IMG/VR virus record: IMGVR_UViG_3300035698_028218
Coordinates: 1-64,000 of that record
Source of the DNA: a virus
DNA length: 64,000 nt
Direction: 5' to 3' (one strand)
In this document: in pieces, positions 1,359-40,769 of the stretch
How the letters are laid out: each line of letters begins with the position of its first letter
Numbering within the stretch: position 1 is the first letter of the stretch
Notes under the pieces: generated by a model
What the model saw: only the letters and a program-made list of their open reading frames with translations
What the model was told of the DNA's origin: nothing
The model's database searches: none
Made by a program: the position numbers and the translations under genes

Positions 1359-2371
1359 TATGTTATTTCTTTTAAAATATTAATAATCTTTTTAGATGAA
1401 TATCCATCACCAAAAGGACATGAATCATCAACAAAGTAATTAGAAATATTCTCTTCAAATACTTCAATCAGTTTCAATGGATTTTCCACCATAACTGTTG
1501 ATTGTCCAATAGCTTCTGGTCTTTCAGTATTATTTCTGCACGTTAAGCATTTTTTCATTAGAAAACTACATTCTTCTTGAATACCTCCAGAATCAGTAAT
1601 CACCAATTTAGCGGAGTTTATATATTTTATCAAATCATAGTGATTAATTGGGTCGATGTCAGATATATTTTTTGCAGTTAAAATACCTCTATGTTTCTGT
1701 ACATTAGGATTAGGATGAACAGGGAAAACAAATCTCAGATCAGGGTGTTTTAGTGCAATTTTATTTATTGCATCAAACCACCCATCCATTTTATTATGAT
1801 TTTCTCTTCTATGTAATGTCACTAATATAATATCATCATATATTGGGGTCTCATAAATGAATTCCCTTAGATTATCCAATGCAGTGTTACCAACAACAAA
1901 AATATCCCCACTAACCCCTTCATTAAGTAGATTGGTTTTTGATAATTCGGTTGGGCATAAGTGAATATCTGCTATTCTAGATACTAATTGTCTATTCATT
2001 TCTTCTGGAAATGGACTTGTTTTATCATATGTTCTTAGACCAGCCTCTAGATGTATTATCTTCTTACCATGATTAAATGCTGATAAAGCAATAGCTAATA
2101 CCGAGGTAGTATCTCCCTGTACTAATACATGTGTAATATCTGGATCATCAAATATGTCACCTTGTTTTAATATATTACCAATTACTGTATCTAATCTGTT
2201 ATTGTTGATCACATAATCCATTGTAAAATTATAATCAGCATCAGAAGGTGCAATATCTTTATGTTGACCAGTAAAAAGAACCTTTATTGGTAAATTTTCC
2301 TCTCTCATTTCAGCAATTAGTGGTTTCACTTTTAACCACTCTGGTCTAGTTCCGTATGTTATTAGTATCAT
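1358..2371 (-). CDS. wecB: UDP-N-acetylglucosamine 2-epimerase
   Basis: 337 aa, near the usual 360-380 aa of the non-hydrolysing epimerases that interconvert UDP-GlcNAc and UDP-ManNAc. The N-terminal ILITYGTRPEWLKVKPLI matches the family signature (xxxGTRPExIKxxPL). Further hallmarks are FTGQH, VQGDTTS, HLEAGLRT, FPEEMNRQL, LVTLHRREN, FPVHPNP and the UDP-binding ITDSGGIQEE. The next gene overlaps its stop by one base. It would supply ManNAc-type sugar nucleotide to the four glycosyltransferases upstream in the operon. All catalytic stretches look intact. Confidence 0.93.
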   Translation of the reverse strand: MILITYGTRPEWLKVKPLIAEMREENLPIKVLFTGQHKDIAPSDADYNFTMDYVINNNRLDTVIGNILKQGDIFDDPDITHVLVQGDTTSVLAIALSAFNHGKKIIHLEAGLRTYDKTSPFPEEMNRQLVSRIADIHLCPTELSKTNLLNEGVSGDIFVVGNTALDNLREFIYETPIYDDIILVTLHRRENHNKMDGWFDAINKIALKHPDLRFVFPVHPNPNVQKHRGILTAKNISDIDPINHYDLIKYINSAKLVITDSGGIQEECSFLMKKCLTCRNNTERPEAIGQSTVMVENPLKLIEVFEENISNYFVDDSCPFGDGYSSKKIINILKEIT

Positions 2372-2390
2372 ATGAGATTCTTATATTTTA

Positions 2391-3050
2391 TCATAATTGT
2401 TTGTATTCTTTAAAAACATCATTATCTTTTAAATCTTTATATCCACCAAACTCACCTAAATCAGGGACGACCATTGGATAGTTTTGCATTAACGATAATC
2501 CATGTGATGCTTCCTGTGGTGTCATATACATGTTCCACCCAAGAGATTTAACGTTATCATCCTTATATCCAACTTCAGACCTTCCTTCATATCTTGCTTT
2601 CTTAAGCCATTCAACTGCTTCTGGGTTATCAGTTAATATCATCCCACCTTTACCAATTGAAAGTGTTTTTTTAATATGAAATGAAAGACACATATAACTG
2701 TCTTTAATATACATACTTGATGATAATCTCTTTGCAGCATCATAAATTGGTAATGGTTCTAATTGATATACTCCACTCCATTCAAAATTCTTAAATACTG
2801 GTGTGAACCCTGCGTGAATTACCGACATTGGTACTGAAAGATATGTTCTATTCGGTAGAATTACCTCATTATTTAATTGTTGATCACAATGCTTCATCCA
2901 CATCAATGAAAGAAATAATGTATTAGTACAACTATCAACAGCAACTGCATATGGTGCACCTGTATATGCAGCCATTTCTTCTTCAAACATTTTTACAATT
3001 TTATATGGATTGTGCAATGTTTTTTTATTTTCAAATATTTTTTCTTCCAT
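2391..3050 (-). CDS. Short DegT/DnrJ/EryC1-type aminotransferase
   Basis: 219 aa resembling the N-terminal large domain of PLP-dependent sugar aminotransferases. Visible family features are VAVDSCTNTLFLSL (phosphate-binding stretch), NRTYLSVPMSVIHAGFTPVF, an Asp in PIYDAAKR, and SFHIKKTLSIGKGGMILTD, which contains the expected PLP lysine. Normal members are 370-400 aa; this one lacks most of the C-terminal small domain. No remnant follows, because the epimerase begins 19 nt later, so it is a compact form or a truncation. It lies next to the epimerase and a GNAT acetyltransferase, consistent with making an acetamido sugar. Confidence 0.82.
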   Translation of the reverse strand: MEEKIFENKKTLHNPYKIVKMFEEEMAAYTGAPYAVAVDSCTNTLFLSLMWMKHCDQQLNNEVILPNRTYLSVPMSVIHAGFTPVFKNFEWSGVYQLEPLPIYDAAKRLSSSMYIKDSYMCLSFHIKKTLSIGKGGMILTDNPEAVEWLKKARYEGRSEVGYKDDNVKSLGWNMYMTPQEASHGLSLMQNYPMVVPDLGEFGGYKDLKDNDVFKEYKQL

Positions 3051-3820
3051 TAATCTAAATTTATATCATCCATCCATCCATGCAAAGTTATAATAACATT
3101 ACTTGGTTTGAATCCAATTCTAGTAAAGGCTCTATTTACTGAGTCGTTATTTATTAAAACATTATGTTCTTCCCAATGAAACCCCATTTCAGAACCCCAC
3201 TCTAACCCAGCAATTGTAATGTCTTGAAATATACCCTTTCCTCTGTGTTTGGGGTCTACTGCACCCATACCACCCGCTGCATATATTTTACCTCCCTCAT
3301 CATATGTTTTAAATGAGAGATACCCTGCAACTTCACCATCTTTCTCTGCAACCAATATCTTATCTGCCACGTTTAGGTTTGTGCAAGTATTATATGCCCA
3401 ATCACCATATGCATCTAAACAATCATTTTTTTTTAATCTTTTGTTTGCAAAATAATGACCATAGTTATTAAAACATATTCTAGCCAATTTAACCATTCTT
3501 GATGTATCTTCTACTTTAAAATCTCTTATTATAAATGACCCATCTCTCTTTGGTAACTTAGTAATATTAAAGTCTTTGAGATTATAATAATATGTTTGTT
3601 GTGCATCTTTAATTCCAAACCCATAACTCTCTAGTTGGTTTATAATTTCAATATTATCGAATCCCATTCTTGCAATAACTAATTCATATTTATTGTCTAA
3701 TAAATATGAAATACCCTCATTAATCCCTTTGTTATTGAGGAATTCATTATTTATTTTACCAACCTTAATATTAAATCTTTTACTATCTATTCCACTATAT
3801 ATATCCATCACCAAATACAA
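3050..3820 (-). CDS. GNAT-family N-acetyltransferase
   Basis: 256 aa. The C-terminal half (about residues 95-250) has the GNAT fold pattern: a strand ending GEVAGYLSF, then AAGGMGAVDPKHRGKGIFQDI, which contains the acetyl-CoA pyrophosphate loop (Q/RxxGxG/A-like HRGKGI), and a late INNDSVNRAFTRIGFKPS typical of the family. The N-terminal part is less clear and may be a substrate-recognition region, as in WecD-like amino-sugar acetyltransferases. It shares one base with the aminotransferase gene downstream, so acetylation of the amino sugar made next door is the simplest proposal. Confidence 0.8.
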   Translation of the reverse strand: MYLVMDIYSGIDSKRFNIKVGKINNEFLNNKGINEGISYLLDNKYELVIARMGFDNIEIINQLESYGFGIKDAQQTYYYNLKDFNITKLPKRDGSFIIRDFKVEDTSRMVKLARICFNNYGHYFANKRLKKNDCLDAYGDWAYNTCTNLNVADKILVAEKDGEVAGYLSFKTYDEGGKIYAAGGMGAVDPKHRGKGIFQDITIAGLEWGSEMGFHWEEHNVLINNDSVNRAFTRIGFKPSNVIITLHGWMDDINLD

Positions 3821-4560
3821 GTTTTCTTTAATGATGCACCACCAGTTAAATACCCCCTATTGGTATCTACTCCAAGAGAGTTATTTAACATTGTTCCTAC
3901 ATCAATATAAGTATTTTCTTTTTCAGCTAAAAATAATTTATGTATTAAGACCTCACTCAATGAAGATGCTGAAAATAAAAATATATGATCTTTAATATTA
4001 TTATTTTCTATCCAATCAATAATTTGATCTGAAATATTGAAATTATTCACCATACAATTTTCTCCAACCCTAAAATCTTTAACCACCTCGAATGGTAGTT
4101 TAGATATATCCATAGTTTCATTACAAATATATACCACATTCTTAAATAGAGGGAGCATTTCATTCATAAATCTTGGGTAATTGGCATTTATTAATAAATT
4201 AGACCATGTTAAATGATCATCATCACCTCCACGAAAATCAACTTGCCACTTAAAATTTTCTTCTCCAACACAACACTTACAACTAAGACCCACAAAATAA
4301 TTCTTATGGTGATACTGAAATGAGTCTTTTAGTGCATCGAAAAAATACCTATGCTCTACTGGATCAACATCTTTTAAATTTACAGAATTGTAAATACCTA
4401 ATCCTCTAATACCATCTATCTCATACCAACTATCACCAATCTTAAGACTTTTATTCATTAGAAGGTGCATTTCACCATCAGAAAATCTTGTATATGCAAA
4501 ATTCTCACCATTTAATAGCTTATTTTTTAATAAATCAAAATGCTCTACAAAATCTTTCAT
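3808..4560 (-). CDS. GT-D-fold glycosyltransferase-like protein
   Basis: 250 aa. AYTRFSDGEMHLL (about residues 22-34) matches the RFGDGE signature of the GT-D (DUF1792-type) glycosyltransferases found in surface glycan loci. The C-terminal YIDVGTMLNNSLG fits the other conserved end of that family (a D-x-G stretch near the C-terminus). No membrane segment is seen, so it is probably cytosolic, acting on a lipid- or protein-linked acceptor. It overlaps the GNAT gene by 13 bp and lies 1 bp after a GT-A enzyme gene. The substrate cannot be read from sequence. Confidence 0.72.
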   Translation of the reverse strand: MKDFVEHFDLLKNKLLNGENFAYTRFSDGEMHLLMNKSLKIGDSWYEIDGIRGLGIYNSVNLKDVDPVEHRYFFDALKDSFQYHHKNYFVGLSCKCCVGEENFKWQVDFRGGDDDHLTWSNLLINANYPRFMNEMLPLFKNVVYICNETMDISKLPFEVVKDFRVGENCMVNNFNISDQIIDWIENNNIKDHIFLFSASSLSEVLIHKLFLAEKENTYIDVGTMLNNSLGVDTNRGYLTGGASLKKTCIW

Positions 4561-4561
4561 A

Positions 4562-5296
4562 TTATTTACTTAACTGAACAGTTTTCCAACCATTCTTTAT
4601 ACAATGTATAGTAGTTTCGTTTCTTAGGTCTAGGTGATTACTTATTTTCCAAGAACTATTTTCGTCCGACCCTACTCTCCAACCATAATCCACATCACAA
4701 GACCATAAATTTTTATTATCTACGGGGTGTGGAGGTACGAAGGTATTTATATTACCATATTTTTGAGCTAAATATGAAAACATAATATCCTCACCATTAT
4801 CCCAAGTGAATGGTTTTTCATAAAAAAGATATTTACTCCATTCTTGTTTAAAAAACCATGCGTGACCAACAAGATCAACCCTCTCAATACTACTTGAATT
4901 AGTGCCATTCCACCCTACTTTAGTGTGTGGTACATAACCATTACTATGCTGTAGAATACCGCTACCGCCATATATACCCTCTTGTTTTGACATTGAATCT
5001 AAACAATTTTTAAACCAATCTTTTTGAGGTAAAATATCGTCATCAAACATTGCGATATACTCTGTTCTACACAATAATGGTATAGTAAATCTACCAAAGA
5101 ATTTAGTGTTCCAATTACATTCGTATGTGTTTATTTTCTCATCTTCAGGTAAATATTGATCAATACCAGAGTTATTAAACCAAACATGAATATTTTCAGG
5201 TTTAATTCTAATACTTTGATTTAGTATTGCCTCAATTTGTTTTTCTAGTGTATCAGGTCTTTTATACACATTTAAAATTACACTTATATCACTCAT
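4562..5296 (-). CDS. GT-A (family 2-like) glycosyltransferase
   Basis: 244 aa. The N-terminus SDISVILNVYKRPDTLEKQI is the usual GT2 nucleotide-binding start. EYIAMFDDDILPQKDW (about residues 79-94) holds the metal-binding DxD motif. Later WDNGEDIMFSY supplies an ED pair at the usual place of the catalytic base. No membrane helix is present. It belongs to the glycan operon, packed within two bases of the neighbouring glycosyltransferases. Sugar specificity is unknown. Confidence 0.85.
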   Translation of the reverse strand: MSDISVILNVYKRPDTLEKQIEAILNQSIRIKPENIHVWFNNSGIDQYLPEDEKINTYECNWNTKFFGRFTIPLLCRTEYIAMFDDDILPQKDWFKNCLDSMSKQEGIYGGSGILQHSNGYVPHTKVGWNGTNSSSIERVDLVGHAWFFKQEWSKYLFYEKPFTWDNGEDIMFSYLAQKYGNINTFVPPHPVDNKNLWSCDVDYGWRVGSDENSSWKISNHLDLRNETTIHCIKNGWKTVQLSK

Positions 5297-5297
5297 T

Positions 5298-6200
5298 TTA
5301 ATCTATTCCAAGTACATCATAATATAGTTCTTCGATTAATTCAACAGAATTATCACTTCTATATTTTTCCACATCTTTTGGTACTTCTTGATAAGTTATG
5401 TCGAAAATAGTACCAGTATTATCAACCTCATAAATATATGCTGGTTTACCACAAAGCCAACCTTCTATTGTTGTTCTACCTCTAAAAATACCGATAGTAG
5501 TGTCACATTTTTTATAGTAATCTTCAACATTTTCTTTTATACCAAAATATGTTATATGACTATATTTTAATAAACTTGACATTACATTGAGTCTATCAAT
5601 TCCAATAATCCAAAACTCTTTACCTTCTCTTTCAGTTCTTTTTGCGGTATGATTGATCATATTGATTCTTAAATGATCAATAGTACCAACAAAAAGAACA
5701 ATTTCCTTTTCATTCTTTTTTTCTTTACTATAATTTGTGTTAAATCTTTCATGATCAAATGGATTGTCAATATGAATTATTTTATCTTCTTTAATACCAT
5801 ACGACATTATATAGTCTTTAATAGTATCTCTAATTGAAATATATTTTTTAATCTGTGGTGAAATAATTGGCACTTCAAAAACAGGAATAACCTCAGACCT
5901 AACATGCATTACGGCAGGTACATTGGGATAATTTCTTAAAATTATCTCACCTATTGGTTTGTGATTAATATGAAGGATATCAAATTTTTGTTTAGGTGCC
6001 TCACTTACATGAAAAACATTTACACCATATTCACTAATCATAGAAACCAACGGTTCCCCAACAATATTAGCTACAATAGTTACGTTATGCTCCCATTTAC
6101 TTAATTGCTTTGCCATTTCAAAATTAGAAATTTCTGAACCAGTAAAACTATTAAATGAATTACAACAAATTAATATATTAAAACCACTAAAATCTTCCAT
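5298..6200 (-). CDS. GT-B (family 4-like) glycosyltransferase
   Basis: 300 aa, shorter than the typical 350-400 aa. The N-terminal FTGSEISNFEMAKQLSKWEHNVTIVAN is the acceptor-side Rossmann start of GT4 enzymes (glycine-rich loop, then hydrophobic strand). IHIDNPFDHERFN and IVLFVGTIDHLR mark the domain boundary. The segment from GIFRGRTTIEGWLCGKPAYIYE is the donor-binding end with the family E-x7-E-like region. It starts one base inside the upstream glycosyltransferase gene. It probably adds one sugar in the same glycan. Confidence 0.83.
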   Translation of the reverse strand: MEDFSGFNILICCNSFNSFTGSEISNFEMAKQLSKWEHNVTIVANIVGEPLVSMISEYGVNVFHVSEAPKQKFDILHINHKPIGEIILRNYPNVPAVMHVRSEVIPVFEVPIISPQIKKYISIRDTIKDYIMSYGIKEDKIIHIDNPFDHERFNTNYSKEKKNEKEIVLFVGTIDHLRINMINHTAKRTEREGKEFWIIGIDRLNVMSSLLKYSHITYFGIKENVEDYYKKCDTTIGIFRGRTTIEGWLCGKPAYIYEVDNTGTIFDITYQEVPKDVEKYRSDNSVELIEELYYDVLGID

Positions 6201-6913
6201 TAATTCTCTAGTTTTAGGGGTAGGTCATCTTTAAAGTGATTAACAAACATTAATCTATTTAATTCCCACTCACCATTTACTTGACCTATGGATAGGTGAG
6301 TTACTCTAATATCAGTAACGACACCAATATTACAACCAGCAAGGTAATTACTAATACAAAACGGTATGTCGTAATAATGAAACATACCAAATCTTAAATC
6401 AAACTCTTCTTCAATATTAAACGGATCAACAGCCATAAATAAACCATCAATTGCCACAACTGGCTTAACTCCTCTAAATTCTTGTGAGTATGTACTAGTA
6501 TATTCCTCTAGACCGTTATCGTGATTAACAATACCATACATTCCCTTTGTTTTCATTTGGTTGGTCTCATCTAACCACCAAACACCGTTTTCTTCAATTG
6601 TATCTGTTCCTGCGATTCCAATTATCTGATAGTCATTATTTCTATCATTAAAATGCATCAATAATCTATTGCCCCAATTTTTTGTATTGAATAAAACATC
6701 GTTATGAACAAATACTGCGATTGTAGATTCCTTATCTTCAATTTCAGAAAGTGCTCTATTATAAAGTTCTGGGAGAGAATATTCTCTTTTATTTTCGTAC
6801 CTCTTTAATTTATACTTGTGGCTACCTATGGTTCTCTTTACTCTTTCTTCAAATAATGAGTCTTCCTCATGTGATAGATGTGTTGAATAAATAACAACAA
6901 TTTTCTTCTTCAT
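6200..6913 (-). CDS. StrF/GT2-like glycosyltransferase
   Basis: 237 aa. The pattern SLPELYNRALSEIE, then TIAVFVHNDVLFNTKNWG, matches the StrF-type glycosyltransferase domain (SLAxxYNxGxxxA and vFxHDDV). GIAGTDTI follows at the expected place, and VVAIDGLFMAVDP and FHYYDIPFCISNYLAG complete the fold. HND replaces the more usual HDD. It is the first gene of the glycan cassette and begins only 17 nt after the gp53-like tail gene. No promoter box is seen between, so it is probably transcribed with the tail genes. Confidence 0.8.
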   Translation of the reverse strand: MKKKIVVIYSTHLSHEEDSLFEERVKRTIGSHKYKLKRYENKREYSLPELYNRALSEIEDKESTIAVFVHNDVLFNTKNWGNRLLMHFNDRNNDYQIIGIAGTDTIEENGVWWLDETNQMKTKGMYGIVNHDNGLEEYTSTYSQEFRGVKPVVAIDGLFMAVDPFNIEEEFDLRFGMFHYYDIPFCISNYLAGCNIGVVTDIRVTHLSIGQVNGEWELNRLMFVNHFKDDLPLKLEN

Positions 6914-7241: not shown

Positions 7242-10172
7242 TTATTCTTCATTATTTCTACCACCCAAAAAAGAGTTTTGAATTGTTCTAAATATCTTAG
7301 ATGCTATTTGTTTATTCTCCATTTCATTTGCAACACTTTCAGCAGAACCATTTCCCTTTTTAAATGTTGAATTACCATAGTAATTGAAAGATACTGCATT
7401 TTGTAGTGCATCGATAGGTTCTTTTAATGATTGACCACCAATTAACTTTAGTGACATAGTAACGTCTGCTGTCATAAATTGTAATCCCATGCCTTCTGGG
7501 TTCATATCCCAAGGAGCATCATCATAATTTAATTCCATATTCTCAATAATTGCTTTTGTATGGAACTGATCACCTAATCTAATTATAACTACTGGTTGTT
7601 TCCCAAAAACAGAATTTCTACTAGTAATAATATTTCCATTATCAGCAGTTTTTGTTATTGGCGTACCTTGTCTTGTACATTGATGTAAGAATGTTAGTCT
7701 TCTATGATAATCTTCAGGTGTTTGAGAATAAAAAACAGATTGGAAAACATTATTTTCTACAACTGATTGAAACCCTTCTGGATATAATTCATTAACTGTG
7801 TGTTCATTAAATGTAGATGAGATACCCTTCATTGAACTCTTACTTAGTAAATTTCTTTTCTTTGAAATTGAATTTAATTGACCTTCAAGGTCTTTAATTC
7901 TCGCTTTGTCTTCAACACTAATATTATCTATTCTTTGTGTTACATTCCCATTATTAAAAAATAAAATTTCAACAGTTCTTTCTTTTTTAACTATTTCATT
8001 GGCGATATTTTCAGATGACTCACCAAGAGAACCTGCGTCTTGAGAACCTCTTGGAAGAGTTCTTATTATATTACCATTTCTAAGCTTATTAATGAAATTA
8101 TCATTTGGATATGCAATTTCAAATTGATCTATAATATATTCCTTGACCGCCTGAATTCTTCTACTACTTAGTTCTTGATTATATTCTTCAGATATAGTTA
8201 TATCAGAATTATTAAACAATCTACTTGATCTACCAATTAATTCTATAGTCACTTGACCTCTCTTTTCCTCAGAAAATAGATCAACAACAATATCTTTGAT
8301 TCTACTATTAAAATCCTCATTTAATCCAAAGTCCCAACCTTGATCTATTACTGTTTGGTTTCCTTGACCATTCTCATATATCTCACCACCAATCTCAGTT
8401 GTAGTATCAACATAATTTTCTATGTAACCAGTAACACCAAAAACACCACTAACATAAGGTTGATCATTAGGGAAAAACACATTAATATCACTTGGTATTT
8501 CTAATTCAATTGGTTCTAATTCAATTGTATCACTAAGTATTTCTAATTCAGTTAGAATTTCGATTTCCTTAGCAATTAAATCAAAATCATCACCATAAAT
8601 AATTTCTTCATTTAATGAAGCAGTACTACCAAAATCAAAGAAATTTGCTATCTCTCTGTGTGATTTCATTTTTTTCACATGTGAAGGGTGATCAACTAAT
8701 AACTTAAAACTAAGCGTTGCTGATCTTTCGGTTGAATTATATGAATAGATTGGTTCACCTCTACCAATAAAATTGGTTGTGTCATGCTTTACTGATACTT
8801 GTTCAATTACTCTAACATCATAAGGTGCAAACCACATTACTCTACCATTGAAACCCTTTTCATGTTCTGGTAATCTACTAAAAATTTCGCTTTCTCTATC
8901 GAATGCTAAATTTTCCATTGAAAACATAACATTCAAATTAACACCAGTATCATTTGGGCTAGGTGCATACTTAGGTACAACATTATTATAAATTACTGAA
9001 TTGGGGTTTTGGTTATAAACCTTATTACCTTCAAACCTAATTGCCTTTGCAAAATTATTATATGGATCATCAATTGTGTGTTGTCTTACACCATCACCTT
9101 CCCTTAACATATTGGGAAATGCTGTATCTGGTACATAATACAAACCTGAACCCTGTTTACCTTCTATTGAACCATCAATCTCAGATTTAATTATTTTTTC
9201 ATTACCACCTAATCCATTTCTTTTAATTTTATGTAATCCTTGATGAAGCTTTAATAATCCAACTTTGGCATTTGAACCATTCTCTAAACCTACTCCCCAT
9301 CTTAAATCATCATTATTAAATCCAAATCTTGGGTTATTAACACCATCGCCATTTCTTAATACATCTTCAACTAAAGCAAGATTACGTGTTTTACCGTAGA
9401 TATTATTTTTACCATATGCATCTTCCAATTTTCCATACTCTTGAGTATTATTAGTTCCATAATGTAAAATAAGTGAGTTACGATAATCAATATTTATGTT
9501 TTCAATTTTTGAATTGATATCAGGAAAATATATTTGATTTGTTGGAAAGAAATCTCTATTTGATATATACCTATCAATACGTTTAAGATTTAATTTATCA
9601 CTTTGGAGATTACGTGTAAATGGTATATCAGTTCTCTTATAATAGTTACTATCCAATTGATTTACTAATATTCCTAATTGACCTTTACCAGTATTCTTTA
9701 ATAGATCAATATCATTATGAGTATATGTATTGACAATACGTGGTAATTTTCCAGTACTAAATGAGGTTAATTTTTCTACTAATAAACCAAATGTTGTTTG
9801 ATTTTCTCTTCTTGTTATTTCAAAATCAATCTTCTTAGTAAGAAAACCAGTATTGGGATCACCATCAACTAGGTTTTTAATGTTAAATGTAGGTACAAAC
9901 TCAGCTTTAGCCCTATTGGATACTGTCTTTTGTAGTTGATCACTTAATATTTGAACTCCTATTTGTTGTATTGGTGTTAATGGTGTTGTTAATCTACCTA
10001 ATACTGTATTTGTAAAGTCAAAACTTTCAACTGGTTTTATAATACCAGAAATACTATTGATTGCATCAACAAACTTTGGATTTTCAACATTGTACGGATC
10101 ATCAGGGGAATATAAATTCCTAGATAGTATCTGGTTTCTTAATTCTTTTGAATTATCTAAAAGTCTTGACAT
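7242..10172 (-). CDS. Giant tail/baseplate protein with internal OmpA-like domain
   Basis: 976 aa, no signal peptide. About residues 615-755 look like an OmpA C-terminal peptidoglycan-binding domain: VTIELIGRSSR, then YNQELSSRRIQAVKEYI, corresponding to the family's GHTDxxG and N-xxLSxxRAxxVxxYL, and a closing ERTVEILFF strand. The flanking regions hold beta-rich segments, such as SATLSFKLLVDHPSHV and the C-terminal MTADVTMSLKLIGGQSL, of the kind found in phage baseplate proteins. The gene heads an 11-gene minus-strand run and has a late-type promoter box 20 nt upstream. A structural role, possibly contacting the cell wall during injection, is inferred. Confidence 0.75.
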   Translation of the reverse strand: MSRLLDNSKELRNQILSRNLYSPDDPYNVENPKFVDAINSISGIIKPVESFDFTNTVLGRLTTPLTPIQQIGVQILSDQLQKTVSNRAKAEFVPTFNIKNLVDGDPNTGFLTKKIDFEITRRENQTTFGLLVEKLTSFSTGKLPRIVNTYTHNDIDLLKNTGKGQLGILVNQLDSNYYKRTDIPFTRNLQSDKLNLKRIDRYISNRDFFPTNQIYFPDINSKIENINIDYRNSLILHYGTNNTQEYGKLEDAYGKNNIYGKTRNLALVEDVLRNGDGVNNPRFGFNNDDLRWGVGLENGSNAKVGLLKLHQGLHKIKRNGLGGNEKIIKSEIDGSIEGKQGSGLYYVPDTAFPNMLREGDGVRQHTIDDPYNNFAKAIRFEGNKVYNQNPNSVIYNNVVPKYAPSPNDTGVNLNVMFSMENLAFDRESEIFSRLPEHEKGFNGRVMWFAPYDVRVIEQVSVKHDTTNFIGRGEPIYSYNSTERSATLSFKLLVDHPSHVKKMKSHREIANFFDFGSTASLNEEIIYGDDFDLIAKEIEILTELEILSDTIELEPIELEIPSDINVFFPNDQPYVSGVFGVTGYIENYVDTTTEIGGEIYENGQGNQTVIDQGWDFGLNEDFNSRIKDIVVDLFSEEKRGQVTIELIGRSSRLFNNSDITISEEYNQELSSRRIQAVKEYIIDQFEIAYPNDNFINKLRNGNIIRTLPRGSQDAGSLGESSENIANEIVKKERTVEILFFNNGNVTQRIDNISVEDKARIKDLEGQLNSISKKRNLLSKSSMKGISSTFNEHTVNELYPEGFQSVVENNVFQSVFYSQTPEDYHRRLTFLHQCTRQGTPITKTADNGNIITSRNSVFGKQPVVIIRLGDQFHTKAIIENMELNYDDAPWDMNPEGMGLQFMTADVTMSLKLIGGQSLKEPIDALQNAVSFNYYGNSTFKKGNGSAESVANEMENKQIASKIFRTIQNSFLGGRNNEE

Positions 10173-29781: not shown

Positions 29782-30500
29782 ATAAATATAAATTTGGGGT
29801 CAATAAAGATTTAAATATTACACTTAATCTTTCAACTAATGTTAATTTAGAGGGTGATAATGGTAGATCATTATTGGAAAATGAAACTAATTCGTCAATT
29901 AATGAAGCTAGAAGTGGTGATAAAATTAGAATAAAGAAATTAAATAATACAACAGTAAGATTTAATTTTTATGATGGTGATGGTTTTATCCCCAACCTAA
30001 GTGGTGCTGGCTTCACTGATAGTGACCTAACTACTATTGGTGAAAATGTATTTAGTAGTTTTTTCTTTTTTAGGGTTTATGATACCCCTAATCTATCACA
30101 AGGTAATTTACTTCATACATCATATTTGAATGGTTATCAAATCTACACTCAATATAGAAGCTCGACTGTGATAAGTTTAAGTGGTGTCCAAGAATATAAT
30201 AATATCTACCTTCAAGAAAGATTAGTTGATACTAATATTGCGTATGTGAAATTTAATTATTATAACGCTAAAACAGGTATTATTCATAATTTTATTTCAG
30301 ATGAGACTAATGGTGAATTAGTTGAAATAAATATCATAAATAATGAGTATAATTTTGTTGATACAGTAGTAAATCTTACTGAAAATACTAATATATCATA
30401 TAATACTAATATTAATGATAATAATAAATCAAACACAATAGAAACACCTAACTACCCACCACAGAAAGGCTTCGATAATGGTGATTATGTATTAATTTAA
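29775..30500 (+). CDS. Unknown virion-region protein
   Basis: 241 aa, overlapping the previous gene by 7 bp. Alternating strands (TVRFNFYDGDGFIPNL, then SSFFFFRVYDTPNL) and the Asn/Thr-rich C-terminus suggest a beta-sandwich virion protein. Its last 4 bp overlap the convergent gp15 gene. No family recognised. Confidence 0.65.
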   Translation: MLNKYKFGVNKDLNITLNLSTNVNLEGDNGRSLLENETNSSINEARSGDKIRIKKLNNTTVRFNFYDGDGFIPNLSGAGFTDSDLTTIGENVFSSFFFFRVYDTPNLSQGNLLHTSYLNGYQIYTQYRSSTVISLSGVQEYNNIYLQERLVDTNIAYVKFNYYNAKTGIIHNFISDETNGELVEINIINNEYNFVDTVVNLTENTNISYNTNINDNNKSNTIETPNYPPQKGFDNGDYVLI

Positions 30501-31261
30501 ATGCCCGTACCTAATTTTGGTCTTCTTGTTGTTTTGGTTAATTCATAGTCTTCTTCATTAATAATAAAACCATGAATTGTAATATTAAATGAGGAGACAA
30601 ACATTTTATCTGCCTCACCTACTTCTTGTACAGTATCCTTTTCTTCGACAGACTCCATTGTTAATCTAACTGGATATTTTTGAATTTCTACATATTTTTG
30701 TTCCTCAGAAAACAATGTAAACATATTTTCATCATAAAAATTAACCATCTCCCTGTCTTTTGAGAATAGACTAATTTCATACGTTAAATCGACATTTACT
30801 GGTTGTGGGACTTTATATCTAAGGTTTATCCTTTCACCATCTTCTATAATTGGAACATCCATATATTTTCCCTTAAAAAAGGGTATTCTCGCCCTCTCTT
30901 CTCCCATTCTTGTACCCTTTTTCTTATCTATTCTTTTCACTGTAATAAACGGAGTTAGAATATTCTTGTCACCATCACTTATTTTCCATGTTTTTTCGAA
31001 TTCACCCCATCTTTCATTATCCATATAAATTGTTGGGATATCCTTACCATCCCAAGCAATCTTACCATCGCCACCGTTAACAAACTCAAAAACAGCATCA
31101 TCAAGCTCAAAAAACCCAACTGTTTTAGGTAGGTATTTTGTATTATCATTAGTCTGTTCCATTAGATCAGCAACTCTATCAAAGTCATAATCCCTGAATT
31201 TACCCGAATCAAGTATTTCTACTCTAGGTTGTAAATTTTTTTTTCTCTTAGGTAATGCCAT
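30497..31261 (-). CDS. 15: T4 gp15-like tail terminator/sheath stabiliser
   Basis: 254 aa (T4 gp15 is 272). The core PQPVNVDLTYEISLFSKDREMVNFYDENMFTLF (quoted in part; about residues 151-183) resembles the gp15 stretch in which a strand of 'eisvya...' is followed by a long helix. The acidic C-terminal region ending FIINEEDYELTK also fits. Two regular sheath and neck genes surround it in the wider order. It has its own late-type box only 10 nt before the ATG. The assignment rests on pattern and position, not on a strict motif. Confidence 0.65.
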   Translation of the reverse strand: MALPKRKKNLQPRVEILDSGKFRDYDFDRVADLMEQTNDNTKYLPKTVGFFELDDAVFEFVNGGDGKIAWDGKDIPTIYMDNERWGEFEKTWKISDGDKNILTPFITVKRIDKKKGTRMGEERARIPFFKGKYMDVPIIEDGERINLRYKVPQPVNVDLTYEISLFSKDREMVNFYDENMFTLFSEEQKYVEIQKYPVRLTMESVEEKDTVQEVGEADKMFVSSFNITIHGFIINEEDYELTKTTRRPKLGTGI

Positions 31262-31271
31262 GTTATTTTTT

Positions 31272-31280
31272 TATAAATAC
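31272..31280 (-). promoter_or_regulatory. Late-promoter-like box for gp15
   Basis: GTATTTATA in coding orientation, 10 nt before ATG 31261, back-to-back with the TATATTTG box at 31290. Confidence 0.65.
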
Positions 31281-31289
31281 TTATTTTAG

Positions 31290-31297
31290 TATATTTG
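31290..31297 (+). promoter_or_regulatory. Bacteroidota-type promoter -7 box (TATATTTG)
   Basis: TATATTTG matches TAnnTTTG and ends 5 nt before ATG 31303. TTTT (31267-31270) lies at the -33 position, 19 nt upstream. A leaderless mRNA is likely. Confidence 0.55.
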
Positions 31298-31302
31298 TAA
31301 TT

Positions 31303-32007
31303 ATGATAAAAGCAAATGAGTCTAAGGACGAAAATAGTAGGTGGTATGTCGAGTCTTCGAATATACTTATGATAGAGTATAATAAGATAACCTTAATTAT
31401 GGAAGTCTACTTTAAAAATGGTGGTGTATATGAGTATCAGAATGTTGATATGGATACTGTTTTGAGTTTTGTTAACTCCGATAGTCAAGGTAGATACCTG
31501 AATACGGTAATTAAAAAGGGTGATTTCCCATCAAAAAAACTATATACACTTAAAGATTTCGAAATTGAACAAATAATTGAGGATGGTAATAAGGATGGTG
31601 ATGATGAAGAAATAAGTGAAAATTCGTGGGGTAAAGAGTTGGAATTAACGGAATACCAGACCAAAGCAATTAGAACTAGAGCACCATTAGTTGATCAATA
31701 TAAATATATGGATACCCTTCATATGTTACTTGGATTAACAACTGAGATTGGTGAACTATCCGACCCATTTAAAAAACACTTAGCCTATGGAAAAGAGATT
31801 GATTGGGTTAATGTAAAGGAAGAATTAGCAGATATTATGTGGTATGTTGTTAATTTTTGTGATCTACATAATATTAATCTAAAAGAAGAAATGGGTATTA
31901 ATATTAAAAAACTAGAAGCTAGATTTCCAGAAAAGTTTTATACATCTAACGGTGCAATAAATCGTGATTTGGATACAGAAAGAAAGATTTTAGAAGGGGG
32001 AAAGTGA
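31303..32007 (+). CDS. KTSC domain - MazG-like pyrophosphohydrolase fusion
   Basis: 234 aa from ATG 31303 (an upstream ATG at 31255 would run through the promoter and the gp15 start). Residues 15-75 look like a KTSC domain: SSNILMIEYNKITLIMEVYF, then GGVYEYQNV and SQGRYLNTVIKKG. Residues about 125-215 are MazG-like: LHMLLGLTTEIGELSDPFKKHL followed by KEELADIMWYVVNF, giving the ExxE...ExxD metal site of all-alpha NTP pyrophosphohydrolases. MazG-like enzymes hydrolyse NTPs/dNTPs or lower alarmone levels. The gene opens a plus-strand run of nucleotide and metabolic genes. Confidence 0.8.
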   Translation: MIKANESKDENSRWYVESSNILMIEYNKITLIMEVYFKNGGVYEYQNVDMDTVLSFVNSDSQGRYLNTVIKKGDFPSKKLYTLKDFEIEQIIEDGNKDGDDEEISENSWGKELELTEYQTKAIRTRAPLVDQYKYMDTLHMLLGLTTEIGELSDPFKKHLAYGKEIDWVNVKEELADIMWYVVNFCDLHNINLKEEMGINIKKLEARFPEKFYTSNGAINRDLDTERKILEGGK

Positions 32008-32030: not shown

Positions 32031-32276
32031 ATGACGATACTTTGGGTTCTTATTATAGTATTATTGGTTGTGATTATTGCTTTAGTTGTTGCTCTACTTC
32101 GAGTAATATCTAAAGCAACATATCTCTCAAAAAAAGATATTGATTTTGTGAGTTTTGCAATAAAGATGTATATTGCATATGCCGAAGAATTTAATATTGG
32201 TGCTGGTGATAAGCATGAATATTTAGTTGAGCAACTAGAAAGAATTAAGAAAGATAGTTTAGGAAAAGAAAAATAA
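32031..32276 (+). CDS. Small single-pass membrane protein
   Basis: 81 aa. Residues 2-25 are one hydrophobic helix (ILWVLIIVLLVVIIALVVALL) with a short N-terminus, followed by a charged cytoplasmic-like region (SKKDIDFVSFAIKMYIAYAEEF). It looks like a membrane anchor rather than a holin, which would usually have more than one helix or a basic tail. Its stop overlaps the next start (TAATG). Function unknown. Confidence 0.7.
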   Translation: MTILWVLIIVLLVVIIALVVALLRVISKATYLSKKDIDFVSFAIKMYIAYAEEFNIGAGDKHEYLVEQLERIKKDSLGKEK

Positions 32277-32797
32277 TGAAAAAAGAATTAGAATTAAGAA
32301 TGTATTTCTTAGTGCCATATAATATTAGTGAAATACAAAAAGGTATCCAATCAGGACATGCTGCGTTAGAATATGCTAGAAAATATGGTGGTGATGAAGA
32401 ATTTAAGAATTTTGTTGATGACTATAAAACATGGATAATACTTAATGGTGGGACAACTGGTTCTGCTAGGGATAGTAATAATGTGTGTCATGGTACATTA
32501 GATCAGTTTGGTGATTTCTTAAGTGATATTGATTATAAATTTGCTTCATTTAATGAACCAGACTTAAATGGAGCACTAAGTGCACTTAGTTTTATTTGTG
32601 ACGAAAGGGTTTTTAATAATGAAGACTATCCAGATTTTGAAACTTGGGTTAGAAATAATAATGGTCAATGGAATGGTATTGGTGCTGAATTAGTTTTAGT
32701 TGACCATAATAAATGGCTTAATGATTATATTGATTTTATTGGTGGTGCTAAAATTTATTCATTGAAATCCAGATTACGAAACTATAAACTTGCATAG
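32276..32797 (+). CDS. PTH2-like protein (peptidyl-tRNA hydrolase II fold, tentative)
   Basis: 173 aa. IQKGIQSGHAALEYARKYG resembles the helix of PTH2 proteins (KGKxAAQxxHAA). WIILNGGTT and FASFNEPDLNGALSALSFIC fit the two later conserved segments (T-x-D/EPDL...). PTH2 enzymes release peptides from peptidyl-tRNA, but related phage proteins have not been tested to my knowledge, so only the fold is suggested. The gene sits in the MazG-to-hydroxylase run and its stop falls 1 nt before the next ATG. Confidence 0.5.
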   Translation: MKKELELRMYFLVPYNISEIQKGIQSGHAALEYARKYGGDEEFKNFVDDYKTWIILNGGTTGSARDSNNVCHGTLDQFGDFLSDIDYKFASFNEPDLNGALSALSFICDERVFNNEDYPDFETWVRNNNGQWNGIGAELVLVDHNKWLNDYIDFIGGAKIYSLKSRLRNYKLA

Positions 32798-32798
32798 T

Positions 32799-33494
32799 AT
32801 GTTTATTGAGCAAGACTATGAATCCTATACTGAGGAAGATCACTACGTATGGAATAAACTCTATACTAGACAAACAGAAAACTTAGTATACAAAACAGTA
32901 CCAGAATTTTGGTCTGGTATTTCATTACTTGAAATTGATGAGAAAATACCGAATATTATAAATATTAATGAAAAGCTAAAAATTTTAAATGGTTGGGAAG
33001 TTATTGGGGTTAATGGTCTTATTGATGATGATGTTTTTTTTAAATTACTTGGTGAAAGGAAGTTCCCGATTACCACTTGGATTAGGAAAAAAAATCAGAT
33101 CGATTATATTGAAGAGCCTGATATGTTTCATGATCTTTTTGGTCATGTACCATTTCTTGCAAACTCAAAATATACTAGCTTTTTAATTGATCTTTCTAAG
33201 AAGGCAAAGCCAATTTTTGAGTCAAATGATAAAGAAGCACAATACAAAATGTCTAGATTGTATTGGTATACAATAGAATTTGGTTTATTGAAAGAATCGG
33301 ATGGTAATTTTAAGATTTATGGTTCTGGTATTATTTCATCATACAACGAAACAAACAGATCACTATCCAATGTATCAAAAAAAGTGAAGTACAATACAAA
33401 AAAATTATCTCTTCGTTTTGAAAAAGATAGTTTACAAGATTTTTATGTATATATTGAAGATAATTTACAAAAGTTAAATACAATAAAATATTAA
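32799..33494 (+). CDS. phhA: Phenylalanine-4-hydroxylase-like aromatic amino acid hydroxylase
   Basis: 231 aa from ATG 32799 (in-frame TTG at 32790 overlaps the previous gene). EEPDMFHDLFGHVPFL (residues 105-120) and LYWYTIEFGLLKE (154-166) match the signature of pterin-dependent aromatic amino acid hydroxylases. The three iron ligands H111, H116 and E160 are all present, and KIYGSGIISSYNE follows as in bacterial PhhA. These enzymes convert phenylalanine to tyrosine with tetrahydropterin and O2. The length is close to compact bacterial forms, which lack a regulatory domain. It appears intact and lies among phage genes, so it is an auxiliary metabolic gene. Confidence 0.88.
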   Translation: MFIEQDYESYTEEDHYVWNKLYTRQTENLVYKTVPEFWSGISLLEIDEKIPNIININEKLKILNGWEVIGVNGLIDDDVFFKLLGERKFPITTWIRKKNQIDYIEEPDMFHDLFGHVPFLANSKYTSFLIDLSKKAKPIFESNDKEAQYKMSRLYWYTIEFGLLKESDGNFKIYGSGIISSYNETNRSLSNVSKKVKYNTKKLSLRFEKDSLQDFYVYIEDNLQKLNTIKY

Positions 33495-33496
33495 TT

Positions 33497-33728
33497 ATGT
33501 TAGAAGAAATAGAAGAAAGTAACCCAGAAGAAAATTGGTTTTGATAATGCAATAATTGGTACATACGGTACTAAACTGGTATACTCTACTCAAAAGTGTA
33601 TTAATATCTTAATCGAAGTCGAAGGCATGGAATATACTGATGCCACTGAATATTTTTCATTCAATGTATCTGGAGCATATGTAGGTGAACAAACACCTAT
33701 TTTTGTGGAGGATAGATATTCCTACTAA
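33497..33728 (+). pseudogene. Small phage protein gene split by a +1 frame change
   Basis: From ATG 33497 the frame reads MLEEIEESNPEENWF and stops at TGA 33542-33544. If one A of the AAAA at 33531-33534 is dropped the reading becomes PEEIGFDNAIIG and stays open to TAA 33726-33728, giving 75-76 aa (VYSTQKCINILIEVEGMEYTDA, then EYFSFNVSGAYVGE). The joined sequence resembles a small protein seen in many tailed phages. The extra A could be a sequencing error, a true mutation, or a +1 recoding site. Function unknown. Confidence 0.65.
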
Positions 33729-33736
33729 AAAAATAA

Positions 33737-34282
33737 TTAAATATCCAGTTCATCAAGGAAGGGTATAATATCCTCCTTGACTGGTCTTGCTTTAATTATT
33801 CTAAAGAATGGTCTCATTGATGCAATTGTTTGTGAAGTAACATCGGTCACATTTTGTGGATCGAACACCTCATAGTATCTATCTTTCTGTCCAGACATAT
33901 TATATTTAACAATATCACCTTGATTAATATCAATATCCCTTTCTTCTAATTCTTTGAGGAAGAGCTTAACCGTTATATTGCCCGTATCGCTTCTCATAAG
34001 ACCGCTATCGCCATAACTTTCCGATACTGATGGTTCTACCTCAACCATAGCATTTAATGCAACAGGAGTCAAGAATTTGCGTTTACTTGAGGTCGTACCA
34101 TATAGTTTGTTTGACTTGGTATTGATTATGTCAATTCTATATAAATCAACGATTTGTTTAATATCATTTTCAATATAGTTTCTAGCAAATAGTATATCAG
34201 TTTCAAAACTTTTTTCAGTCATGAATAAACCAAATCTATCATCTTCCAGATCGTTGTGATTTTTTTGTTTTCTCTTTGCCAT
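33737..34282 (-). CDS. 14: T4 gp14-like neck protein
   Basis: 181 aa (T4 gp14 is 256). NKLYGTTSSKRKFLTPVALNAMVEVEPS (about residues 57-84) has the YGE..K.Y..P pattern of gp14. ELEERDIDINQGDIVKYNMSGQKDRYYEVF follows in the same order (quoted in parts). It follows the gp13-like gene by one base, as in T4 where 13 and 14 are adjacent. It should join head and tail. Confidence 0.72.
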   Translation of the reverse strand: MAKRKQKNHNDLEDDRFGLFMTEKSFETDILFARNYIENDIKQIVDLYRIDIINTKSNKLYGTTSSKRKFLTPVALNAMVEVEPSVSESYGDSGLMRSDTGNITVKLFLKELEERDIDINQGDIVKYNMSGQKDRYYEVFDPQNVTDVTSQTIASMRPFFRIIKARPVKEDIIPFLDELDI

Positions 34283-34283
34283 A

Positions 34284-35408
34284 TTACTTTAAGTGAATTG
34301 GTATTCTTGGTGGTTGAAAACTTCTTTCTGTATTAACATTTTGAGCAATTCTAGCCCTCTCGTCAGTTAAATTAACTAATGATAGTTTGTCTAGTGCCTC
34401 CTTAATATTATTTTCGGTAGTTTCTTTTAATTTTTCACCCTCATCTAATAGATGTCTATAATCCATTTGAAGTGCCTTGTCAGTCGAACCAAGTTCCCCA
34501 CTATAGAAACCTCTTATCCCGCCAATTGTAATTTTCATTCTAGATATTAGTAAATCCCTAATATGAACTCTAGCTACTGTATTTACATCCTCCCAATCTA
34601 AAATATCAACTGGAACATCTGAAGGTAGTTTAACAATATCCTTATTTTGACTTAAACAGTCATCTCTATTATCTTGGGTTTCATAATAAAAGTACCAAAC
34701 CTTAGTACCTGCGTATCTTTTACCCCACTGAGAAGATATTTCCTCTCTAGTACCCGGTATTGGATAAAGATAAAGTAATTTTGTGCCATTAGCACCCCCA
34801 GTAATTCTATATGAAAGAGTTGATTGAAGAATTTTTTCTTTCATTCTCCTATCTTGTGCACCCATTAATAGTGAATATGTTGGTTGTACGTACTGTGCTG
34901 GTCTACCTTGATATCCCCATCCCATTTGTCCTGCACTCCAATTACCTAATGCAAAGGGATCACCCATACCCTGATCAATTGAAGGTGGTGTAACCCAAAG
35001 AACTTCATTAACCTCTCTACCTGCTGGTATCTCGTAAACCTGTGTGGTTGGTTCTATTGTAACAAAGTCTCTTTGTAGTTGCCACTTAGTACCCTCTGGG
35101 GCATTAGCACCTAAGCCAACCTGTTTTGAATATGCAAACGTAAATGACCTCATAAAATCATTTGATTTTGTGGTAAAGGCATCAAATAAGTTTGTTGTAT
35201 CGAGGTCAACACCCTGAAGTCCAACCCATTGTTGTGATATTAACCAACTATTCATTATACTTGAATAATCTTCAATTGACATTTCAAAAAACGTATCCAT
35301 CATATCATTTATTTCACTCTCAATTCCAAGTGGTCTTATTGGATATCCTAAGTCGTGTTTTACATGTCTATATAATCTTTCTTTATCTTTTTTTGAAATT
35401 ACCGCCAT
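34284..35408 (-). CDS. 13: T4 gp13-like neck protein
   Basis: 374 aa from ATG 35408 (MAVISKKDKERLYRH); the longer frame begins with TTG at 35429 and is less likely. YRHVKHDLGYPIRPLGIESEINDMMDTFFE (residues 13-42, described in part) matches the gp13 start (LxxRLGxPVxxIexxxxQxxxxixxAl). FATKS-type DFMRSFTFAYSKQVG, a Pro/Gln-rich middle and LLISRMKITIGGIRGFYS near the end are consistent. It is larger than T4 gp13 (309 aa). A late-type box lies 22 nt upstream of the ATG. Confidence 0.72.
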   Translation of the reverse strand: MAVISKKDKERLYRHVKHDLGYPIRPLGIESEINDMMDTFFEMSIEDYSSIMNSWLISQQWVGLQGVDLDTTNLFDAFTTKSNDFMRSFTFAYSKQVGLGANAPEGTKWQLQRDFVTIEPTTQVYEIPAGREVNEVLWVTPPSIDQGMGDPFALGNWSAGQMGWGYQGRPAQYVQPTYSLLMGAQDRRMKEKILQSTLSYRITGGANGTKLLYLYPIPGTREEISSQWGKRYAGTKVWYFYYETQDNRDDCLSQNKDIVKLPSDVPVDILDWEDVNTVARVHIRDLLISRMKITIGGIRGFYSGELGSTDKALQMDYRHLLDEGEKLKETTENNIKEALDKLSLVNLTDERARIAQNVNTERSFQPPRIPIHLK

Positions 35409-35422
35409 TTTACTTACATTTG
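35392..35422 (+). promoter_or_regulatory. Bacteroidota-type promoter (TTTG-N19-TACATTTG)
   Basis: TTTG at 35392-35395 and TACATTTG at 35415-35422 match both consensus elements with an exact 19-nt spacer. It lies 31 nt before ATG 35454, which opens the exonuclease-helicase run, and overlaps the gp13 start on the other strand. Confidence 0.65.
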
Positions 35423-35430
35423 AATTCAAT

Positions 35431-39269: not shown

Positions 39270-40769
39270 TTATTCATAATAAAAAAAATAATTTCCTTTA
39301 TTTTTTGACTTACCTGAACACCTTCTGGATATCGTTGATTGACTTTCAGCTAGGAATTTAGAGGCTTCAGACGTACTGTCGTATATTGCAATACACTCTC
39401 CTTGGGGTGTTTTAACTAAAACCCTTTTACATATTGCTCTTTTTTGTTCATCAGATAATCCCATCTCCAGTTTAGTTTTTGAAATCTTATTTTTGGTTAT
39501 CTCTGATCTATTTTTACCTTCCCAATATTTTGGTGACACCTTACTTAAATGTTCTTTTTCTTCTTCTGTTTTTAATCTACCATATTTTTTTGCTTCCTCA
39601 GACCCCTTCTTTGATATTCTATTGCTAATCCAAGTTTCAGATTGTTTAGTGCCTTGTAATCTATTTGATAGTGCTAGTCTTTGTGTTATTGATGGGCTTG
39701 AATTTTTACCACCAACTTCTAGGTTATAACCCAACTCTCTATTTGTGGAGTCATAAGTTTCTATATATTCAATCTCTTTCTTATTTAGATCATAAATATT
39801 TGGTGCATTATCAATTATTTCAAATATAAAATTGTTAAAACCATATTTATTAAATGCACTTTGTAGGTATTTATTATTAAGAACACCTCTTTTTGCCGAA
39901 CTTTTATATTCATAAATTCTTTTATTGAGGGGTCTAGAAGTTTGACCAATATAAACCTTAGAATTAATCTTATTTTTAATTCTATAAATAAAACCGTAGA
40001 TGGGTTTTTGATTCTCTCCAATTAATAATTCATATTTTATTTTACCACAATCCCAAATTTTTATGAGTTTTGAAATGAATTCAGAATATTGCTCATTAGA
40101 TAAATTTTTTGTCTTTTTATATTTTGTGCCATAAGTAATTCTATGATTAGTTTTATTTAGTTCTGGGTTATACCACTTAAAATCAGGTGGTAGTGTATTA
40201 ATTCTCTTAAAATTATTTTTCTCATATATGTTACTATCTGACACATATTTTAAATCAGCAAAACTAATTACTGAGGTTGGTTTATATAATTCTATAAAAT
40301 TTTTGAGGATTTTAGAAAAAATTCCAGTAATAATTTTACCTGATTTTATTGAAAATCTAGATAATTCATATTGATTTTTTTTAAGTGAGCCATTTACACC
40401 TCTTTTTTCATTAAAGTTCATAACCCCAATAAGCTCATCGTTATAATAAGCACCAAATCTTATGTTTGACTTATCTGAACCTTGGATGTGATTTTCATTT
40501 AAGAAAATATTTACCTCATCATTAGATGCATATTTTATTATACATTTTCTTGCATATATAATTTCTTGATTACTAAATTTGAGTTTATTTAGTTTATCTT
40601 TTATTAGTTTTTTAGATGACTTAACATCAAAGTAATTATATATTATTACTGACTCAAATTTACTTGAGTAAACTAGTTTTATTTTCTTTAAGTCTGATTT
40701 TTCTAAATTTATTGTTTCTTTGTAGTTTAAAAAAAGAACAATTGTATTATTAAATTTAAATTCCTTCAT
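39270..40769 (-). CDS. GIY-YIG homing endonuclease with DNA-binding repeats
   Basis: 499 aa. About residues 60-235 carry a module often joined to phage homing nucleases (CIIKYASNDEVNIFLNENHIQGSD, then GAYYNDELIGVMNFNEKRG, quoted in parts). Residues about 255-345 are a GIY-YIG nuclease (GFIYRIKNKINSKVYIGQTSR, then Glu in EIEYIETYDS). The C-terminus (about 455-495) is NUMOD-type: IAIYDSTSEASKFLAESQS, then SRRCSGKSKNKGNYFFYY. Its first codons overlap the end of the upstream gene. It lies next to the capsid gene and is probably a freestanding mobile endonuclease. Confidence 0.85.
   Translation of the reverse strand: MKEFKFNNTIVLFLNYKETINLEKSDLKKIKLVYSSKFESVIIYNYFDVKSSKKLIKDKLNKLKFSNQEIIYARKCIIKYASNDEVNIFLNENHIQGSDKSNIRFGAYYNDELIGVMNFNEKRGVNGSLKKNQYELSRFSIKSGKIITGIFSKILKNFIELYKPTSVISFADLKYVSDSNIYEKNNFKRINTLPPDFKWYNPELNKTNHRITYGTKYKKTKNLSNEQYSEFISKLIKIWDCGKIKYELLIGENQKPIYGFIYRIKNKINSKVYIGQTSRPLNKRIYEYKSSAKRGVLNNKYLQSAFNKYGFNNFIFEIIDNAPNIYDLNKKEIEYIETYDSTNRELGYNLEVGGKNSSPSITQRLALSNRLQGTKQSETWISNRISKKGSEEAKKYGRLKTEEEKEHLSKVSPKYWEGKNRSEITKNKISKTKLEMGLSDEQKRAICKRVLVKTPQGECIAIYDSTSEASKFLAESQSTISRRCSGKSKNKGNYFFYYE

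Follow-up and report, generated by a model that had tools for sequence, protein, structure and literature searches.

Phenylalanine hydroxylase (PAH) is an iron- and pterin-dependent enzyme that converts phenylalanine to tyrosine, and an open reading frame for such a protein in viral DNA raises the question of whether a phage carries a working copy and, if so, what the enzyme does during infection. We addressed this for a window of 64,000 nucleotides (positions 1 to 64,000 of IMG/VR virus record IMGVR_UViG_3300035698_028218, which has 71,744 bases in full), for which a preliminary description had proposed a PAH gene in a phage early-type run.

An intact PAH gene

The gene lies where it had been proposed. 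It runs uninterrupted on the plus strand from an ATG at 32799 to a stop at 33494 (32799..33494) and encodes 231 amino acids; an in-frame TTG at 32790 is an alternative start that would add 3 residues. The product matches the Pfam family Biopterin_H (PF00351) with an E value of 6.3e-33 and 114.6 bits (cut-off, 22.7). In a phmmer search of the PDB, the first match was Chromobacterium violaceum PAH (E = 1e-49; 40% identity over the 214 positions of the phmmer alignment), followed by the Colwellia and Legionella PAHs and then by animal hydroxylases. The iron ligands named in the preliminary description, H111 (codon 33129-33131), H116 (33144-33146), and E160 (33276-33278), are intact and occupy the positions of H138, H143, and E184 in the C. 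violaceum enzyme, so that the 2-His-1-carboxylate iron site is present. The combination of iron ligands and family match is far beyond chance, and membership in the biopterin-dependent aromatic amino acid hydroxylases (PF00351) is practically certain.

The residues around the iron are also conserved. F80, R96, P107, D112, Y155, W156, G177, S180, and E184 of the window enzyme are identical in C. violaceum PAH, and across 40 aligned PAH homologues from phages and bacteria, the three ligands are invariant together with F80, R96, P107, D108, Y155, W156, G177, S180, S181, and E184. F80 is the pterin-side (stacking) phenylalanine, and in this family the GL[IL] segment and the tyrosine before the iron-helix tryptophan also belong to the pterin pocket, where G73, L74, F80, and Y155 are the same as C. 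violaceum G100, L101, F107, and Y179. R96, W156, and S180 are substrate residues. In C. violaceum PAH, the exchange L101Y/W180F leads to higher activity on tryptophan (PMC4029321). The window enzyme has the phenylalanine-type letters at both positions, with L74 and W156 matching L101 and W180. Near the active site, it differs from C. violaceum PAH in having T93 for W120 and I104 for L131, and a short insertion lies ahead of the E160 helix.

An AlphaFold2 model built from the 40-row alignment had a mean pLDDT of 96.1 and a pTM of 0.91. When the model was compared with the PDB using Foldseek, places 1 to 19 were all bacterial PAH chains (TM, 0.84 to 0.91 by query length), headed by C. violaceum entries (TM up to 0.91; rmsd, 1.5 to 1.7) and followed by tyrosine and tryptophan hydroxylases. 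The predicted fold is that of the bacterial PAH catalytic domain, and with the pterin-site residues in place, the superposition on bacterial PhhA that the preliminary description had suggested as a check came out in favor of its assignment. Like bacterial PhhA (C. violaceum 1LTU/3TK2, Colwellia 2V27, and Legionella 4BPT), the phage enzyme would have the whole catalytic fold, the 2-His-1-Glu iron site, and the pterin- and phenylalanine-site residues in a single domain with no regulatory domain. Unlike bacterial PhhA, it has a shorter C terminus (231 residues versus 267 to 302 in the solved constructs), besides the insertion and the 40% identity given above. Judged from its sequence, the window enzyme is very likely to be a functional phenylalanine 4-hydroxylase.

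The gene belongs to a jumbo phage lineage

The contig encodes a gp23-type major capsid protein (PF07068; E = 2.5e-73), a head protease, a portal protein, a large terminase, a tail sheath, and a T4-type baseplate protein, and it is a fragment of an uncultivated, T4-like jumbo phage. Among named isolates, the nearest capsids are those of Flavobacterium phages (32%). Close to the major capsid gene, positions 39270-40769 encode a protein with two different homing-endonuclease-like parts. Elsewhere in the window, positions 1358-6913 hold sugar genes (UDP-GlcNAc 2-epimerase, DegT aminotransferase, and glycosyltransferases), which may serve glycans of the virion or of the host surface.

We scanned the 2.9 million contigs of IMG/VR three times for PAH and recovered an identical small set each time. 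The viral-metagenome search called for in the preliminary description thus yielded four further phages with PAH at the same locus, represented by contigs of 39 to 326 kb from other metagenomes (L002, L003, L004/L006, and L005, where L004 and L006 are two assemblies of one phage). Their enzymes are 48 to 53% identical to the window enzyme (P0001). Gene order at these loci is largely that of the window: a 254-amino-acid (254-aa) gene, a KTSC protein, a small membrane protein, PAH, a 181-aa gene, a 381-aa gene, a UvrD-like helicase, and the capsid gene. Since four independent phage contigs share this order, the window contig is not chimeric at the PAH locus, a possibility that the preliminary description had raised against itself.

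The same synteny bears on the wider suspicion that a bacterial PAH has been joined to phage DNA by contamination or chimera, or that the gene is decaying cargo. A frameshifted gene does lie directly downstream of the window PAH, and a separate contig classed as viral in IMG/VR (L009; 5,244 bases) carries a PAH that groups with sphingomonads and is, by this resemblance, probably bacterial DNA. Conserved synteny nevertheless rules out a chimera or contamination in the window: phage core genes lie on either side of the locus in all four independent contigs, the PAHs form a phage-only clade (see below), and the window gene has the GC content of the phage (27%) and a GC3 (21%) like that of its neighbors. 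Decay is countered by the intact window reading frame and by purifying selection in one pair of relatives. For the closest pair of PAHs (L002/L003), dN is 0.143 and dS is 1.117, a ratio of about 0.13 that is approximate because dS is high; in the same pair, the 381-aa gene has a ratio of about 0.05 and a dUTPase-like gene one of about 0.21. The PAHs of this pair are under purifying selection, and we regard contamination, chimera, and decay together as exceedingly improbable.

PAH occupies a variable slot

On the left flank of the locus lies a conserved lineage gene of 254 aa (minus strand, 30497..31261; 43 to 45% identical in L002-L006). It is followed on the plus strand by a nucleotide pyrophosphohydrolase-like protein of 250 aa (31255..32007; PF13619, E = 2e-15; PF03819, E = 3.5e-7; phrog_229, E = 5e-33), which is the MazG-like neighbor of the preliminary description and in which the MazG part sits behind a KTSC domain in one fused protein. 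Next comes a small protein of 81 aa (plus strand, 32031..32276) whose hydrophobic N-terminal stretch looked to us, on inspection by eye, like a membrane segment. In L002-L006, the gene immediately ahead of PAH encodes a homologue of this protein, which is also found in most PAH-less relatives and therefore marks the left edge of a variable slot. The right edge is the conserved 181-aa gene (minus strand, 33737..34282), with 43 to 48% identical homologues at the same place in L002-L006, beyond which lies the conserved 381-aa gene (minus strand, 34284..35429; 61 to 67% identical in L002-L006). Among relatives, the slot bounded by the 81-aa and 181-aa genes varies in length between 15 and about 3,100 bases.

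In the window, the slot holds a gene for a 173-aa protein (plus strand, 32276..32797) with a stop that overlaps the PAH start region, then PAH itself, and then a frameshifted copy of a slot gene of about 100 aa (plus strand, 33497..33733; tblastn in frame 3 of 33537-33716, 38 to 60% identity, with the start in another frame). The last gene fills the slot in 14 PAH-less contigs, and its frameshift in the window may be real decay or an assembly error. In L006, positions 7569-8753, near the PAH gene, encode an HNH-nuclease-like segment fused ahead of a segment matching a PHROG named cysteine dioxygenase.

The 173-aa protein had been described as similar to peptidyl-tRNA hydrolase 2 (PTH2), and its predicted fold supports this. 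It matches phrog_3668, "hydrolase" (E = 1e-19), and with its AlphaFold model (pLDDT, 83), the best 12 PDB matches in Foldseek were all of the PTH2 type (PTH2/Bit1; probability, 0.99 to 1.00); however, the E values were weak (0.002 to 0.02; TM, 0.37 to 0.43 by query length), and a Pfam search gave no match. From the model, a PTH2 fold is likely but not certain. The gene for the PTH2-like protein sits just upstream of PAH in the window and just downstream of it in L004/L006 and L005. It is present in the slot of three of the five PAH-bearing phages versus 1 of the 32 PAH-less phages with a visible slot (P = 0.005 by Fisher's test, uncorrected for relatedness). The pairing of the two genes is suggestive only, because the PTH2-like protein also occurs in other phages without PAH.

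The early-type run of the preliminary description holds only locally: KTSC-MazG, the small membrane protein, the PTH2-like protein, and PAH form a brief metabolic stretch, flanked by tail genes on one side and head genes on the other, in a variable slot.

Distribution and origin

To place PAH within the wider lineage, we used the neighboring 381-aa protein: an alignment query recovered 73 viral contigs, whereas the window protein alone recovered none. Near the 381-aa gene in these contigs, PAH was found only where it was already known. When 43 whole records were searched with a profile, PAH turned up in 8, namely the five of the window's clade and three others (L007, L008, and L010), and in none of the remaining 35, including eight records of about 299 to 372 kb. 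PAH is thus patchy in, and dispensable to, the phage lineage.

Maximum-likelihood analysis of 89 sequences grouped the five phage enzymes in a single clade (100/100) inside the Bacteroidota PAHs, in answer to the phylogenetic comparison with Bacteroidota homologues that the preliminary description had suggested. Among the cellular sequences, which are the best 80 by similarity and not a balanced sample, the closest relatives are Bacteroidota PAHs (Pontibacter, Marivirga, Algoriphagus, and others; identity up to 46%). The immediate grouping with Pontibacter (94/83) is below the starred support level, and we hold a sister relationship only loosely. Unlike the Bacteroidota PAHs, the phage clade has a long stem branch (1.54 changes per column), and its enzymes have features in common that the Bacteroidota set lacks, such as FY-x-YI instead of YF-x-I near the C terminus. 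The sequence comparisons indicate that the window PAH is of cellular origin. A quick tree of the 381-aa protein did not unite the PAH-bearing phages in one clade, which makes loss or exchange of PAH within the lineage likely, with the caveat that support in this tree is weak.

The long stem could also reflect a shift of the phage enzyme to another substrate, such as tryptophan, a modified amino acid, a peptide, or a non-amino-acid aromatic compound, and the insertion ahead of the E160 helix and the T93 and I104 replacements would fit such a change. The compared substrate-site residues are nevertheless kept, including the W156/L74 pair that favors phenylalanine over tryptophan, and we consider a shift improbable.

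A second group of viral hydroxylases

The enzymes of L007 (1816-2613), L008 (9887-10708), and L010 (9842-10678), from viral contigs unrelated to those of the five-phage clade, are of the animal type, 26 to 32% identical to P0001 and 44 to 62% identical among themselves. By sequence, the PDB entries closest to L008 are animal-type hydroxylases. With the catalytic domains of animal-type phenylalanine, tyrosine, and tryptophan hydroxylases, this group shares with the window enzyme the superfamily and the iron site, at about 24 to 32% identity. In the maximum-likelihood tree, the three form a clade apart from the five-phage clade, pointing to a separate capture. L007 is a phage contig, as it has two tail-sheath-like genes and a tail tube gene (together with an ABC-transporter-like gene); L008 and L010 count as viral only through their classification in IMG/VR.

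Possible roles during infection

We propose that an ancestor of this jumbo phage lineage took a stand-alone, bacterial-type PAH from a Bacteroidota bacterium and that the gene was then kept in the lineage under purifying selection. During infection, the phage PAH would use Fe(II), a host-made reduced pterin (tetrahydropterin), and O2 to convert L-phenylalanine to L-tyrosine, giving more tyrosine for phage protein synthesis when the host route to tyrosine is limiting. Catalytic activity, phenylalanine as the substrate, cofactor supply by the host, and the tyrosine-supply role are all inferred. As a whole, this account of a Bacteroidota-derived, working PAH that supplies tyrosine in infection is our best explanation and one we consider reasonably probable; that tyrosine supply in particular is the selected role would be close to an even call, leaning slightly against.

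The cofactor presumably comes from the host, as no phage gene for making or recycling pterin was found. GTP cyclohydrolase I (FolE), pterin-4a-carbinolamine dehydratase (PCD), PTPS, and dihydrofolate reductase (DHFR) were all absent from the PAH-bearing contigs, an absence that is not final because these records are partly fragments. This leaves phage-made pterin or folate for PAH without support. Likewise, none of the clade's PAH-bearing records, again partly fragments, gave a match to PF01329, so that the phage, unlike bacteria with phhAB, has no recognizable pterin recycling partner (PhhB/PCD), which may come from the host. A link between PAH and ThyA/ThyX folate chemistry was also rejected, as there was no pattern: a ThyA-like gene occurs in L005 and a ThyX-like gene in L002, and there was no match in the sequence covered for L003, L004, and the window. 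At L099:14598-16202, a ThyA-like gene seems to contain roughly 200 extra residues inserted in frame, perhaps a mobile element.

We preferred the tyrosine-supply reading because the tRNA arrays of the lineage and the PTH2-like neighbor point to translation. The large arrays suggest a heavy investment in translation, and a probable PTH2-fold protein would fit translation upkeep. The numbers of tRNA matches were 38 in G001, 24 in G002, and 49 in G005 (the last with Phe and Tyr tRNAs) and 36 to 55 in five PAH-less relatives. As the arrays also occur in PAH-less relatives, they do not explain PAH, and we rejected them as the reason for its presence. Among the records L164 (contig positions 60001-71744) and L193-L198, those with any tRNA matches had 11 to 55 each, and the larger contigs covered most amino acids. 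In the phage of L002, ARAGORN predicted a tRNA with the amber-reading anticodon CUA (L197:8501-8573), a possible suppressor tRNA.

A tyrosine-rich phage proteome as the reason for PAH received no support from tyrosine usage: the Tyr and Phe percentages and the Tyr/Phe ratio did not differ between 5 PAH-bearing phages and PAH-less relatives (P = 0.43 to 0.88 by the Mann-Whitney test; P = 0.14 to 0.82 after GC correction). No aminoacyl-tRNA synthetase of the Tyr/Trp type was found in the PAH-bearing phages. That tyrosine usage does not track PAH would also suit an active enzyme that serves tyrosine-derived or redox chemistry, through host tyrosine catabolism (homogentisate, fumarate, or pyomelanin), a phenylalanine drain, or consumption of O2 or reduced pterin. 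Bacterial PAHs do feed catabolism and pyomelanin (PMC3458870). The downstream enzyme of tyrosine, HPPD, was not found in the PAH-bearing phages, however, and such a route would have to be host encoded; we judge this role unlikely, though it deserves weight. Because the stem branch is long and tyrosine usage shows no tie to PAH, there is some room, too, for an enzyme that acts on infection chemistry rather than providing tyrosine for proteins, by way of a phage- or host-specific substrate, a drain on phenylalanine or reduced pterin, or a blunted oxygen- or pterin-dependent host response. We see this as a somewhat fainter prospect than the preceding one. Of these readings, tyrosine supply remains the one we favor.

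Relation to known phage genes

Like phage auxiliary metabolic genes, the PAH is host derived, patchy, and located in a variable slot; unlike the known ones, it was not found among the annotated phages searched. INPHARED, PHROGs, and BFVD held no phage PAH (for BFVD, a collection of predicted viral structures, Foldseek with the window-enzyme model gave no match with an E value below 1). A tblastn search of 50,697 phage records returned no relative of P0001 or of the L007 enzyme, and the open-licence PMC literature searched held no paper on a phage PAH. These results agree with the preliminary description, which knew of no characterized phage enzyme of this type, and the absence applies to the collections and literature searched only. 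The window gene is an intact PAH of a phage lineage, an ordinary member of its family in a location that is unreported as far as we could search.

With this gene, an O2- and pterin-dependent amino acid hydroxylase joins the enzymes carried by phages, apparently for the first time. The phage enzymes are compact PAHs that would be useful in enzymology. The two groups suggest that bacterial viruses have captured the hydroxylase fold at least twice, once in a Bacteroidota-type and once in an animal-type form, and the finding raises the question of whether a phage that itself supplies tRNAs by the dozen also controls the amino acid pools behind them.
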